From contig JALFAW010000099.1 of assembly GCA_022773305.1 (NCBI GenBank), forward strand, positions 1 through 32,964: a stretch of DNA of 32,964 bases, read 5' to 3'. The notes under the pieces were generated by a model. The model had not been told where the DNA came from and searched no databases. It was given only the letters and a program-made list of their open reading frames with translations. How positions within the stretch are numbered: the stretch's first letter is position 1; every line of letters begins with the position of its first letter. Positions 6,826-32,964 of the stretch are shown here, one piece after another. Source of the DNA: Spirochaetia bacterium (GTDB lineage: Bacteria > Spirochaetota > Spirochaetia > Treponematales > Treponemataceae). Position numbers and translations under genes: made by a program.

Positions 6826-6901
6826 GGTAATTTTGAAACCAACAATTAAAACATCTAAAAGAGGTACGACCTTCACACTTGCGACCTTATTACATAGAAA
6901 A

Positions 6902-7399
6902 GGGGGACAGACCTCGTTTATTTGTCGATGAGGTGTGTCCCCCGTATTAATCAAGGTCTGTCCCTGTTTTAAACCTGACTTTTTGTAAAAGAGGGACACA
7001 CCTTGCTTTGCGAACTTGATAAAAAAGGGGGACAGACCTACTACAGACATAATAAATTGGGGTACGACCTTGTTTTCCTCCTTTTTTCAAACCTATAACC
7101 AGAATGATAAGCTCAGTTTTGCCGAGCAGTTTGTAAATCTGAAGTCTGTTGCAGAAAGTAACCAGATGTTCCTTCGTATCGTTTCCAATGATTTTTTATG
7201 GCATCCAAAAGTGTTGTGCAGAAGATGATTACCAGAGAGTACAATGCGCAAAATGTTCAAGTATTTGTAACTAAGGTCTGTCCCTGTTTTTTAGGTGTGT
7301 TCCCTTTTTTAATCAAGGTCTGTCCCTGTTTTAAACCTGACTTTCTGTAAAAGAGGGACACACCTTGCTTTGCGAACTTGGTAAAAAGGGGGACAGACC
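6902..7399. repeat. Cluster of GGGACAGACCT / GGGACACACCT repeats with a ~90-bp direct duplication
   Basis: AATCAAGGTCTGTCCCTGTTTTAAACCTGACTTT(T/C)TGTAAAAGAGGGACACACCTTGCTTTGCGAACTTG(A/G)TAAAAA(A)GGGGGACAGACCT occurs at about 6949-7038 and 7311-7399 with only a few differences. An extra inverted pair lies at 6902-6943. Confidence 0.9.
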
Positions 7400-7424
7400 T
7401 TAGTTAAACTTAAGTCCCACAATT

Positions 7425-8095
7425 TTCTTATACAGACTTTCTCATATTTTTACAAAAAGAAATTCATTCTGAGAACCTTTTAAAGTGAATGTGTAGGTTG
7501 TGTAAACGTTTTCGATTTCCTTGATTGTTCCATAGCAGACATATTCAACGCCGACAATATTACCGATATTTACCGACTGCTTTCGTTTACAAGCCCAGAG
7601 GAGTGAAGTTTTTGCTCGTTAAGGATTTTTTCAAGATTGTCACGTTCAATTATTTTAACTTTACCCATATAAAAAACAGACTCTGTAAAGGCATCGGTGA
7701 CGTATTTTTCAACTGAAGAATTTTGATTATCTGTCGAAAAATCCAGGAACGCATAAGATGCTTTTTCGCCTTTTTTAGTTTCCTGCAGAAGTTTTTAGGC
7801 AAGACCGTCAAACTGTTTTACAAAATCCGAAGAATTTGTTGAATCAGATGAATTTGTAGAACCACTTTCATCTGTAATCTGACCAAATAACTTTCCAAAT
7901 ATTTTCCAGTCAAAAATGAAACTTAGAATTCTTGTAGTACCATCCATAATAAATGAAGCACTTAAATTATTATCTACTTCAAAAGCAAAAAAAAGCTCCT
8001 CCTGAAAAACCTGTCGAAACAATATTTTCGCCGTAACGAGATTTTAAAGTCTGAATACTAAAGTTTTTTCATTCCAAAGTTTATCCAGAAACTCT
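7425..8095 (-). pseudogene. Decayed CsgG/LpoB/FlgO-like (putative lipoprotein) gene
   Basis: Minus-strand pieces in different frames join as SIQTLKSRYGENIVSTGFSGGAFF / AFEVDNNLSASFIMDG...FVKQFDGLA* / KLLQETKKGEKASYAFLDFSTDNQNSSVEKYVTDAFTESVFYMGKVKIIERDNLEKILNEQKLHSSGLVNESSR / VNIGNIVGVEYVCYGTIKEIENVYTTYTFTLKGSQNEFLFVKI*. At least one in-frame stop and two frameshifts. Confidence 0.65.
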
Positions 8096-8098
8096 AAG

Positions 8099-8208
8099 TT
8101 AACTCAAATGGCGCTATTTTAGCCATTTGAGTTAAACTTCCTTAAAATCATAAACTTGAAGAAAGTTTCAACTTTCGAAAGTTTATGATTCGTTCGCGCC
8201 AAGCGAAC
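8099..8208 (-). repeat. Hairpin train downstream of the GH115 gene (diverged relative of the 21.8/24.3/25.1 kb leaders)
   Basis: TTAACTCAAATGGC-GCTATTTTA-GCCATTTGAGTTAA (8099-8135, 14-bp perfect stem); ATCATAAACTT...AAGTTTATGAT (8147-8189) with inner GAAAGTT/AACTTTC; GTTCGC-...-GCGAAC (8192-8208). Confidence 0.8.
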
Positions 8209-11156: not shown

Positions 11157-11179
11157 TTCCTCACTTATTTTTTTTATTC

Positions 11180-11294
11180 GGGTGGCTTTTTGCTTCGCAA
11201 AAAACAGGCTATTCGCCCTTCGCTAACGCTCATCCGCTTCCCTCGCTTCGCTCAGTCCAGTGGACTGCTTCGCAGGGGCTACTATCCTTGCCAC
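11180..11294 (+). repeat. Dispersed hairpin-rich element, copy R3
   Basis: GGGTGGCTTTTTGCTTCGCAAAAAACAGGCTATTCGCCCTTCGC...CTATCCTTGCCAC; internal CAGTCC-AGT-GGACTG hairpin. Confidence 0.88.
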
Positions 11295-15686: not shown

Positions 15687-15718
15687 ATCAATCTCCACAA
15701 TATTAATTTTTATATTCA

Positions 15719-15826
15719 GGGTGGCTTTTTGCTTCGCAAAAAACAGGCTTTTCAGGGTTCCGCTATCGCTTCATTCCTTCGCTACGCTTCGGAACTGGCT
15801 ACGCCAGCCCTTACAATCCTTGCCAC
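15719..15826 (+). repeat. Dispersed hairpin-rich element, copy R4
   Basis: GGGTGGCTTTTTGCTTCGCAAAAAACAGGCTTTTCAGGGTTCCGCTATCGC...GGCTACGCCAGCCCTTACAATCCTTGCCAC; near-identical to R1. Confidence 0.92.
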
Positions 15827-21786: not shown

Positions 21787-22052
21787 AAGGAGGTGTGATA
21801 AAAATTACGTCCGTGTAATTTTTATCACTGCAGATTTTGCCGTTGGCAAAACTGCGATTCGATGCCTCGTGCATCGCCGCTGAACGCGGAGTTTTTAAAG
21901 GAGTGTAAGATAAAACCGCTAAAATAGCGCGGCTTTATCTTACCTAAAGTTTGCGTTGCAAACTTATTATCAACTGCTGTTCCTCATTACATTACGGAAC
22001 AGCGTAAAAAGACAATCGATTGTTGAAACAATCTTCTTGATTTTTTATGGGA
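21787..22052 (+). repeat. Hairpin-train leader, copy A, upstream of the DUF1538 gene
   Basis: GTGATAAAAATTAC-GTCCGT-GTAATTTTTATCAC (21795-21828); GCAGATTTTGCC-GTT-GGCAAAACTGC; CGATGC..GCATCG; CCGC..GCGG; GTAAGATAAA.CCGC-TAAAATAGC-GCGG.TTTATCTTAC (21905-21943); AAGTTTGC-GTT-GCAAACTT; GCTGTTCC...GGAACAGC (21976-22003); GATTGTT-GAA-AACAATC. Confidence 0.9.
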
Positions 22053-22079
22053 GTATAAAAACAAAATAAAAGGAATGAG

Positions 22080-24343: not shown

Positions 24344-24595
24344 AAAGGAGGTGTGATAAAAATTACGTCCGTGTAATTTTTATCACCAAGTATATTTCGT
24401 GTTCTGCACTTCATAAACTTGGATACTCGCCATCCTGGCTCGCCGCTAACGCGGTGTTTTAAAAGGAGTGTAAGATAAAATCGCTAAAATTGCGCGGCTT
24501 TATCTTACATTGAACTGTTGTTCCTCATTACATTACGGAACAGCATAAAAAGTCAATCGATTGCTGAAACAATATTCTTGACTTTTTATGGGAGA
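24344..24595 (+). repeat. Hairpin-train leader, copy B, upstream of arsR
   Basis: First hairpin identical to copy A (AAAGGAGGTGTGATAAAAATTACGTCCGTGTAATTTTTATCAC); different middle hairpins (CCAAGT...ACTTGG, GCCA-TCC-TGGC, CCGC-TAAC-GCGG); GTAAGATAAAATCGCTAAAATTGCGCGGCTTTATCTTAC; CTGTTCC..GGAACAG; AAAAAGTCAA...TTGACTTTTT, then GGGAG. Confidence 0.9.
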
Positions 24596-24599
24596 ATGC

Positions 24600-24971
24600 A
24601 TGAGAAAATCTGAATATTTGGACATTTGTTGTGAAATCCACAAAGAAACTGTTCATGAGATTGAAAAAGTTTTTCCTCAAGAGCAAACTATGTTCTGTCT
24701 TTCTGATTTTTTTAAGCTTTTTGGTGACAATACAAGAATTAAAATTCTTTATTCACTATTAAAAAATGAATTATGTGTATGCGACATTGCAGCATTATTA
24801 AAAATGACTATTTCTGCTATTTCTCATCAATTAAAATTGTTAAGGGAAGCAAATCTTGTAAAAACAAGACGCGAAGGTAAGTCAATTTTTTATTCGCTGG
24901 CAGATGAGCATGTTTCAAAGATTATTGAATTTGGAATGGAACACATATTTGAAAAAAGTGAAGAAGAATAA
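24600..24971 (+). CDS. ArsR/SmtB-family metal-sensing repressor
   Basis: LSDFFKLFGDNTRIKILYSLLKNELCVCDIAALLKMTISAISHQLKLLREANLVKTRREGKSIFYSLADEHVSKIIEFGMEHIFE: winged HTH, ELCVCD motif, and a DxHx10HxxE alpha5 site. In-frame ATG at 24588 is an alternative start. Confidence 0.92.
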   Translation: MRKSEYLDICCEIHKETVHEIEKVFPQEQTMFCLSDFFKLFGDNTRIKILYSLLKNELCVCDIAALLKMTISAISHQLKLLREANLVKTRREGKSIFYSLADEHVSKIIEFGMEHIFEKSEEE

Positions 24972-25133: not shown

Positions 25134-25289
25134 AGAGGTGTAAGATAAAACCGCTAAAATAGCGCGGCTTTATCTTACCTAAAGTTTGCGTTGCAAACTT
25201 ATTATCAACTGCTGTTCCTCATTGCATTTCGGAACAGCGGAAAAAGTCAATCGATTGTTGAAACAATCTTCTTGACTTTTACGGGAGGT
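25134..25289 (+). repeat. Hairpin-train leader, copy C (5'-shortened), upstream of the metal ATPase
   Basis: GAGGTGTAAGATAAAACCGCTAAAATAGCGCGGCTTTATCTTACCTAAAGTTTGCGTTGCAAACTTATTATCAACTGCTGTTCCTCATTGCATTTCGGAACAGCGGAAAAAGTCAATCGATTGTTGAAACAATCTTCTTGACTTTT then GGGAGG; closely matches the 3' part of copy A. Confidence 0.9.
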
Positions 25290-28148: not shown

Positions 28149-28844
28149 ATGAAAATTTCTCATCTTCTTTTTGATTTAGATAATACGTTGTATCCTTCAA
28201 GTTCACAAATGGATGCTGGAATTACACGCCGCATGCTTGAATGTGTCGCTGAGTATTTTAAGTGTGATTTTGAAACTGCCATTGAATTACGAAAAAAAAA
28301 TATAATTCATTATTCAACAACACTTGAATGGTTACGTGCAGAAGGTTTTAAAAATATTGAAGCTTTTTTTGCACATGTTCATCCGGAATACGAGGCAAAC
28401 GAACTTCAACCTCAACCTGATCTTCGAGATTTTCTGCTTTCTCTTGATTATCCAAAATCCATCCTGACAAATGCACCAATGGAACATGCAAAGCGAGTTT
28501 TGCAGAAACTAGGTATTTCTGACCTTTTCGATAACATTACTGATATTCGTGACGCAAAACTTCTTGGAAAACCTTATCCTCATTCTTATTCTGCCGCTTT
28601 GAAAAAATCGGGGACAGACCTTGCGAATACGCTTTTTTTTGATGATATGCAAAAATATACGGACGGTTGGACAGCAATGGGTGGGACTGCAATTTTGATT
28701 GGTAATAAAAATGGTAGACCTCTTTCTGATGATGCAGAATCTCTTTTACAAGCTCGGAAAATGAATTCTGGCAGATCTGGAAAAACAATCAGACTTAGTT
28801 CAATTTATGATTTTCCTGCAATTATTGATACATTGAAAGACTAA
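28149..28844 (+). CDS. HAD-family pyrimidine 5'-nucleotidase-like hydrolase
   Basis: HLLFDLDNTLYPSSSQM, SILTNAPMEHAKRVLQKLGI, LGKPYPHSYSAAL, LFFDDMQKYTDG. Confidence 0.88.
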   Translation: MKISHLLFDLDNTLYPSSSQMDAGITRRMLECVAEYFKCDFETAIELRKKNIIHYSTTLEWLRAEGFKNIEAFFAHVHPEYEANELQPQPDLRDFLLSLDYPKSILTNAPMEHAKRVLQKLGISDLFDNITDIRDAKLLGKPYPHSYSAALKKSGTDLANTLFFDDMQKYTDGWTAMGGTAILIGNKNGRPLSDDAESLLQARKMNSGRSGKTIRLSSIYDFPAIIDTLKD

Positions 28845-32619: not shown

Positions 32620-32666
32620 TATTACCTACTTAGCCTGAAAGTTGGATTTTGAATTTTTTAAATCAA

Positions 32667-32755
32667 GGCTGGCTTTTTGCTTCATAAAAAAAACAAGCTT
32701 TTCACCTTCGCTACGCTTCAGAACTAGTTTCACCAGCTCTTACAATTCTAACCAC
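32667..32755 (+). repeat. Dispersed hairpin-rich element, copy R5 (degenerate)
   Basis: GGCTGGCTTTTTGCTTCATAAAAAAAACAAGCTTTTCACCTTCGCTACGCTTCAGAACTAGTTTCACCAGCTCTTACAATTCTAACCAC; mutated version of R4. Confidence 0.75.
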
Positions 32756-32795: not shown

Positions 32796-32894
32796 TAGGA
32801 CAAATGTCGAGTTTTAAATTTTCATTGAGGGGGTAGTACAACCCCTCAAAACGGCGAAGTCAAGGCTTTAAGCGTTAGCGTGCCTTGACTCGAC
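32796..32894 (+). repeat. Repeat tag plus predicted three-way-junction structure
   Basis: TAGGACAAATGTCGAGTTTT (32796-32815) is an exact reverse-complement copy of 3129-3148. GTCGAG/CTCGAC encloses GAGGGG/CCCCTC and GTCAAGGC/GCCTTGAC. Confidence 0.7.
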
Positions 32895-32903
32895 GTATTC
32901 TTT

Positions 32904-32964
32904 GGGTGGCTTTTTGCTTCGCAAAAAACAGGCTATCCGGGGTTCCGCTATCGCTCCAGCCGCT
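32904..32964 (+). repeat. Dispersed hairpin-rich element, copy R6 (cut by window end)
   Basis: GGGTGGCTTTTTGCTTCGCAAAAAACAGGCTATCCGGGGTTCCGCTATCGCTCCAGCCGCT. Confidence 0.9.

Follow-up and report, generated by a model that had tools for sequence, protein, structure and literature searches.

We analysed a 32,964-nucleotide (nt) contig of a Spirochaetia bacterium of the Treponemataceae (JALFAW010000099.1; this whole stretch is called the window below), in which an earlier note, made from the sequence alone, had drawn attention to a minus-strand hairpin at 8099–8135. This hairpin is the first module of an interspersed element of four hairpins (HP1 to HP4), about 145–165 bp long, parts of which are held in Rfam as the RNA motifs TD-1 (RF03155) and TD-2 (RF03162). 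In the reading that we prefer, to which we give about two chances in three, the element is a non-autonomous mobile DNA and a passenger of IS110-family transposons that are programmed to the Shine-Dalgarno (SD) sequences of genes.

The hairpin reads TTAACTCAAATGGC-TAAAATAGC-GCCATTTGAGTTAA, with a loop of 9 nt and a 14-bp stem in which all 14 pairs are formed, on a stem unlike those of the leader copies, as had been described. Leader copies A (21905–21943) and C (25140–25178), both on the plus strand, read GTAAGATAAAaCCGC-TAAAATAGC-GCGGcTTTATCTTAC. Both stem types had been taken to be fully paired, which is right for the hairpin at 8099 and not for the leader stems, where 14 of 15 positions pair (93%) and the single mismatch is conserved. 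Leader copy B (24469–24509, plus strand) has the loop TAAAATTGC. The window contains TAAAATAGC four times, where 0.64 would be expected, and none of 100 shuffles reaches this count. Counts for the whole genome come from pattern and BLAST searches of the 3.1-Mb source assembly. It contains CTAAAATAGCG 29 times, against 4 for the reversed control; 26 of these sites are on the A (leader) stem and two on the B (CAAATGG) stem, and a third stem type has one (L015). The bare 9-mer is barely enriched (84 versus 64) because most of its copies lie by chance in ordinary, non-hairpin sequence.

The exchange of stems beneath a constant loop extends far beyond the source genome. An independent test was provided by 78 distinct loci from other genomes, picked by the Rfam TD-1 model, which excludes the hairpin; TNAAATRGC lies directly upstream of TD-1 in 22 of them (shuffled mean 0.62, maximum 2). 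Within the Treponemataceae at least 21 unrelated stems bear the loop T-N-AAAT-R-GC in the hairpin 5' of TD-1. When 53 distinct HP1 sequences whose loop is 9 nt long were grouped into 21 stem clusters (below 70% stem identity, one representative each), mean pairwise identity between clusters was 0.73 for the loop and 0.45 for the stem. Loop positions 1, 3–6, 8 and 9 rank among the most conserved, and each stem position is Watson-Crick paired in 14–21 of the 21 clusters. HP4 shows the same pattern: 12 of 15 clusters have the loop TGAT, the internal loops are alike and the stems are exchanged. A possible inner pairing of the HP1 loop, GCTA-AAA-TAGC, was discarded, as it is lost in other loops (TGATATTGC, TCAAATAGC). 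In four loci (L207, L218, L219 and L228) another class of HP1 was seen, with the tip AATGC-AGTTG-GCATT or AATGC-AGATA-GCATT in place of the TNAAATRGC loop.

When the source genome was searched by BLAST with a leader copy as query, 54 matches were obtained, which align as one modular element. Its general order is host GGAG, HP1, HP2, optional modules, HP3, HP4, TTTTTATRGGAG and host start codon. In A elements this becomes HP1 with the loop, HP2 (AAGTTTGCGTTGCAAACTT), an optional insert of 75 bp, HP3, HP4 (AAAAAGTCAATCGATTGTTGAAACAATCTTCTTGACTTTTT) and the end ATGGGAG, some copies being without HP2 or without HP3-HP4. The 75-bp insert (CAGGGGTTAATACAACCCCTG...), which separates HP2 from HP3 in some A elements (contigs C299, C236, C108, C244, C127, C21, C258 and C250), is apparently a further hairpin module. 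B copies (L023, L142–L146) have the same four hairpins with different stems, end in GGAAG and stand in tandem. We refer to GGAG-ended elements as class I and to those ending in GGAA or GGAAG, which include the B type at 8099, as class II.

At the gathering threshold, Rfam recovers two tRNAs only from the window. The gathering score of TD-1 is 64.5, and matches below it are given by an E-value threshold. The source genome has 13 RF03155 matches, one of them above gathering (C166, 68.2 bits); its other copies score 46–60 bits (E down to 1e-9), the intact B elements L144 and L023 score 46–53 bits, and copies in the g15 genomes reach 120–136 bits. The copy at 8099 gives no TD-1 score itself because its HP3-HP4 have been lost. 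The TD-1 model spans HP2–HP4 plus the 3' arm of HP1 only. TD-2 overlaps HP1–HP3 on the opposite strand, with 58.9 bits, above its cut-off, for a g15 copy and 29.9 bits, below gathering and again on the opposite strand, for the C-type element at 21793–21903 of the window. Given this overlap, noticed also at L296 2362–2516, TD-1 and TD-2 (clan CL00124) appear to be fragments of one element type that were modelled on opposite strands. The TD-1 entry leaves out HP1 and its loop and is filed as Cis-reg, whereas the element is mobile DNA and not solely a cis-regulatory RNA. TD-1 matches are present in 83 of 197 Treponemataceae genomes; in a sample of 248 Spirochaetota genomes they occur in 22, all Treponemataceae.

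In A copies the GGAG at the end serves the next gene as its SD. In the source genome 35 of 40 GGAG-ended copies have a start codon 3–13 nt past the GGAG by an automatic test, and most of the others have one by eye; when every GGAG in these loci is taken, 18% pass this test. Across the family, with tandem neighbours set aside, class I has 34 copies with a start codon at SD distance and 3 without, and class II has 7 with and 15 without. A copies thus lie in sense orientation upstream of protein-coding genes, as is expected of TD-1, and class II or B copies often do not. The elements insert directly 3' of the SD GGAG, and their own 3' end restores the SD. The downstream gene therefore does not lose its start signal, and the new SD can be targeted in turn, which explains the tandem arrays.

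Empty sites were found in two close relatives. At the ArsR-type gene the window has AAAGGAG, a C-type (TD-2-like) element (24351–24468, plus strand) in the SD and an A-type element without HP2 (24469–24594, plus strand; leader copy B), whose end GGGAG is the SD of the gene (ATG at 24600) and is followed by AATGCATG. The L252 relative, whose ATPase gene is 97% identical, has TTGGAG and then AATGCATG; both elements are also missing in L274 (93%). At the P-type ATPase gene (start 25295) the window has AAAGAGG, an A-type element (25138–25287, plus strand; leader copy C) whose end GGGAG is the SD, GGGAGG and then TATTCTATG; L274 has AAAGAGG and then TTTTTATG, so that it is empty at both sites, and L252 has the element here. 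Since the junctions are exact, and since either insertion or precise loss amounts to mobility, the TD-1/TD-2 element is mobile. This bears out the mobile-DNA context that the earlier note had suggested.

Could the element instead be a cis-regulatory leader RNA, its hairpins acting in the mRNA, its loop binding a protein or RNA and its copies spread by duplication? The sense orientation of class I directly 5' of start codons, the Cis-reg type of TD-1 and the four stable hairpins would all suit such a role. We consider it quite unlikely, as the downstream genes are unrelated, the copies form tandem arrays and nested insertions, sites are empty in relatives of 93–97% identity, class II copies are mostly away from start codons, and the Rfam models fit both strands of one element. 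The pairing points the same way. In HP1 and HP4, to which this analysis was applied, G-T and A-C mismatches number 12:12 and 10:6, respectively, with no clear preference for G-T. Of their canonical pairs, 2.7% and 1.2% are G-U, where tRNAs from the same loci have 6.4%, a comparison of related sequences with a small control (10 tRNA genes). So few G-U pairs tell against an RNA fold held by long-term selection and suggest that the fold is kept at the DNA level, or that the copies are young.

Characterised members of the IS110 family form a double-stranded DNA circle and use a bridge RNA. At a site where genome G015 has TD-1 alone, G043 has an added transposon directly behind the SD of TD-1, with the domains PF01548 and PF02371 that define the IS110 family. 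Two more copies lie in 400 kb of G043, one at a gene SD (ATGGGAG, then GTCATTATG) and one inside a TD-1 remnant. The source genome has an IS110 immediately 5' of an A element (C229), and plasmid pSpe of Thiospirochaeta perfilievii carries a copy at an SD. IS110 transposons from three spirochaete genera occupy SD sites as TD-1 does, and all of them have the left end (LE) G-N-R-TGATAAAA and the right end (RE) TTGACTTTTTATRGGAG. Both ends are common to them and GGAG-ended TD-1: the last 17 bases of the source genome's IS110 and of an A element are identical (17/17), and D-type TD-1 agrees with the same IS110 at 12/12 positions of the LE (first 12) and 16/17 of the RE. The A and D types thus have ends in common with an IS110 from their own genome, as would be expected of a non-autonomous derivative, and the B type at 8099 does not.

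Between the LE and the recombinase gene lies a leader that is homologous across the three genera and contains a pair of SD-like stretches. In T. perfilievii the first, AAAGGAG, equals the target AAAGGAG, and the second, ATAGGAG, equals the RE ATAGGAG. In G043 the first stretch is AATGGGAG and all three targets are ATGGGAG, a sequence found in only 4 of the 194 GGAG-type SDs of this genome; the second stretch equals the RE ATGGGAG. Read as left guides, the stretches match in T. perfilievii and G043 and partly in the source genome's copy. Joining RE to LE rebuilds TTGACT-17-TAAAAT/TAAAAA in three IS110s, a predicted sigma-70 promoter. The bridge RNA of IS621 has a 5' stem-loop, then a target-binding loop and after it a donor-binding loop, with left guides that read as the top strand, and in the IS110 circle the RE/LE junction rebuilds a promoter (PMC11208160). 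The spirochaete transposons resemble IS110/IS621 (PMC11208160) in the DEDD/RuvC-like recombinase, the long LE leader, the junction promoter and the order of a target-like and then a donor-like stretch within the leader. They differ from IS621 in having a gene SD as the target, in placing the SD-like stretch on the 3' side of the predicted loop, and in sharing their ends with small non-autonomous passengers (TD-1). In our literature search, outside which lay the 2017 paper on 224 candidate RNAs, no report of IS110 targeting SDs and no description of TD-1 as a mobile element was found.

In the mechanism we propose, the two leader stretches would be the left target and left donor guides of an SD-programmed bridge RNA, and the IS110 recombinase would mobilise TD-1 in trans through matching RE/LE junctions; we take such movement in trans to be fairly probable. 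GGAAG-ended class II, including the copy at 8099, would be a sister type with another target (GGAA), and the B type at 8099 would be tied in by its four-hairpin plan and TD-1 score, not by shared ends. More tentatively, with the odds somewhat below even, we picture a bridge-RNA-guided lineage whose guides became fixed on the SD, so that many gene starts serve as safe landing sites and many small TD-1/TD-2 passengers were spawned; their hairpin loops would act as a conserved code that the recombinase or its RNA recognises, leaving the stems free to vary.

Several observations weigh against IS110 as the mobiliser. The first leader stretch of the source genome's IS110, AAAGGAG, only partly matches its own target TATAGGAG. 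The known IS110 recombinase genes in the source genome and G043 are broken by frameshifts, stops or inserts, and that of Thiospirochaeta alone reads through. No IS110 was found in 400-kb samples (14–16% of each genome) of the TD-1-rich genomes G030 and G064. TD-1 of the g15 genomes agrees with the source genome's IS110 at only 12/17 positions of the RE and 8/12 of the LE, the class II B type at 8099 shares little with the IS110 ends, no GGAA-guided IS110 was found, and hairpins have no known role in IS110 transposition. The element might thus be mobile and directed to the SD and yet be moved by another recombinase, IS110 sharing the landing site and having taken its ends from TD-1. IS110 copies inserted within and beside TD-1, and the two 400-kb samples that gave none, would agree with this. 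We hold it to be unlikely, for the Thiospirochaeta IS110 belongs to another family and has ends of the same kind, and TD-1 matches were found in one family only; the ends therefore belong to IS110. The source genome's IS110 (L298 in C229, 280–1530, minus strand) is interrupted by stops and by palindromic inserts, among them an AT-rich, near-perfect one. Relatives of these IS110s were searched for in viral contigs and none were found.

The earlier note had inferred a loop-recognising partner and had named a single-stranded-DNA-binding transposase among the candidates. The constancy of the loop and the mobile context were borne out, such a partner being hypothetical; the transposase did not fare as well as IS110. 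On that reading the element would be of the repetitive extragenic palindrome (REP)/IS200 type, moved by a Y1 (HUH) transposase that reads the loop and the GGAG tag. The tag 5' of the hairpin, the conserved loop and mismatch and the strand specificity do resemble recognition by TnpA-REP (PMC8266576), and the source genome has Y1 genes. A PF01797 (Y1) gene is missing, however, from 16 of 18 TD-1-rich genomes, many of them single-contig, which largely refutes Y1 as the general mobiliser. The source genome's own REP-associated tyrosine transposase (RAYT) is flanked by another palindrome, GGGACAGACCT, and Y2 transposases do not help, being missing in 18 of 19 genomes (no Y2/IS91 transposase bar one marginal match). 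We regard this reading as very unlikely. TD-1 is like REP/RAYT systems in its tag tetranucleotide plus hairpin, high copy number and extragenic location, and unlike them in its four hairpins, 145–165 bp length, SD position and the absence of a Y1 transposase from most carriers. The palindromic GGGACAGACCT/AGGTCTGTCCC repeats constitute a second, REP/RAYT-type family in the source genome; they occur in the window at 2565–2690, 6892–7406 and 28599–28622 and in L252 upstream of arsR, and flank a 260-aa RAYT-like Y1 gene (L067 1301–2320). Integron attC sites of Treponema likewise combine variable stems with conserved unpaired positions in their hairpins (PMC3607928); an attC origin was rejected because by inspection consensus HP1 has no R'/R'' AAC/GTT boxes and the copies are dispersed in SDs with no cassette array.

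Two orphan Rfam RNA motifs are in this way brought together as a single mobile DNA element whose mobiliser can be tested. The transposons offer natural cases of apparent bridge RNAs with a universal gene-start signal as their target, informing which targets IS110 guides can evolve to. The elements rewrite 5' leaders and the genes are not silenced, which bears on regulation in spirochaetes and on the annotation of leader RNAs.

The reported hairpin itself belongs to a B element that consists of two broken tandem copies on the minus strand. HP3 (8192–8208) and HP4 (8147–8189) of the upstream remnant stand in the order seen in the intact B elements L144 and L023. They are followed by the junction GGAAG (8137–8141), which is the 3' end of one copy and the insertion point of the next, then by HP1 of the second copy (8099–8135; direct reading, pairing and comparison of copies) and its degraded HP2 (TAGAGTTTCTGGATAAA, 8080–8096, by comparison with L023 and L144). 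The nearest copies of this HP1 are L023 (96% over 54 nt) and L142–L146. Downstream of the element, 7600–8070 has no open reading frame of at least 100 aa on the minus strand and resembles a decayed coding region. On the plus strand, the C-type (TD-2-like) element at 21793–21903 ends in TTTTTAAAGGAG and lies behind the host GGAG 21789–21792. It is followed by the A-type TD-1 element at 21904–22053 (HP1 21905–21943, then HP2–HP4, end ATGGGAG; TD-1 score 47.9 bits), which has no start codon immediately after its SD. Four C elements of the source genome end directly in a gene SD with no A element behind; other C elements precede an A element. Another intergenic repeat, GGGTGGCTTTTTGCTTCGCAAAAAACAGGC..., has several copies in the window (11168–11234, 15707–15773, 32655–32691 and 32892–32958).
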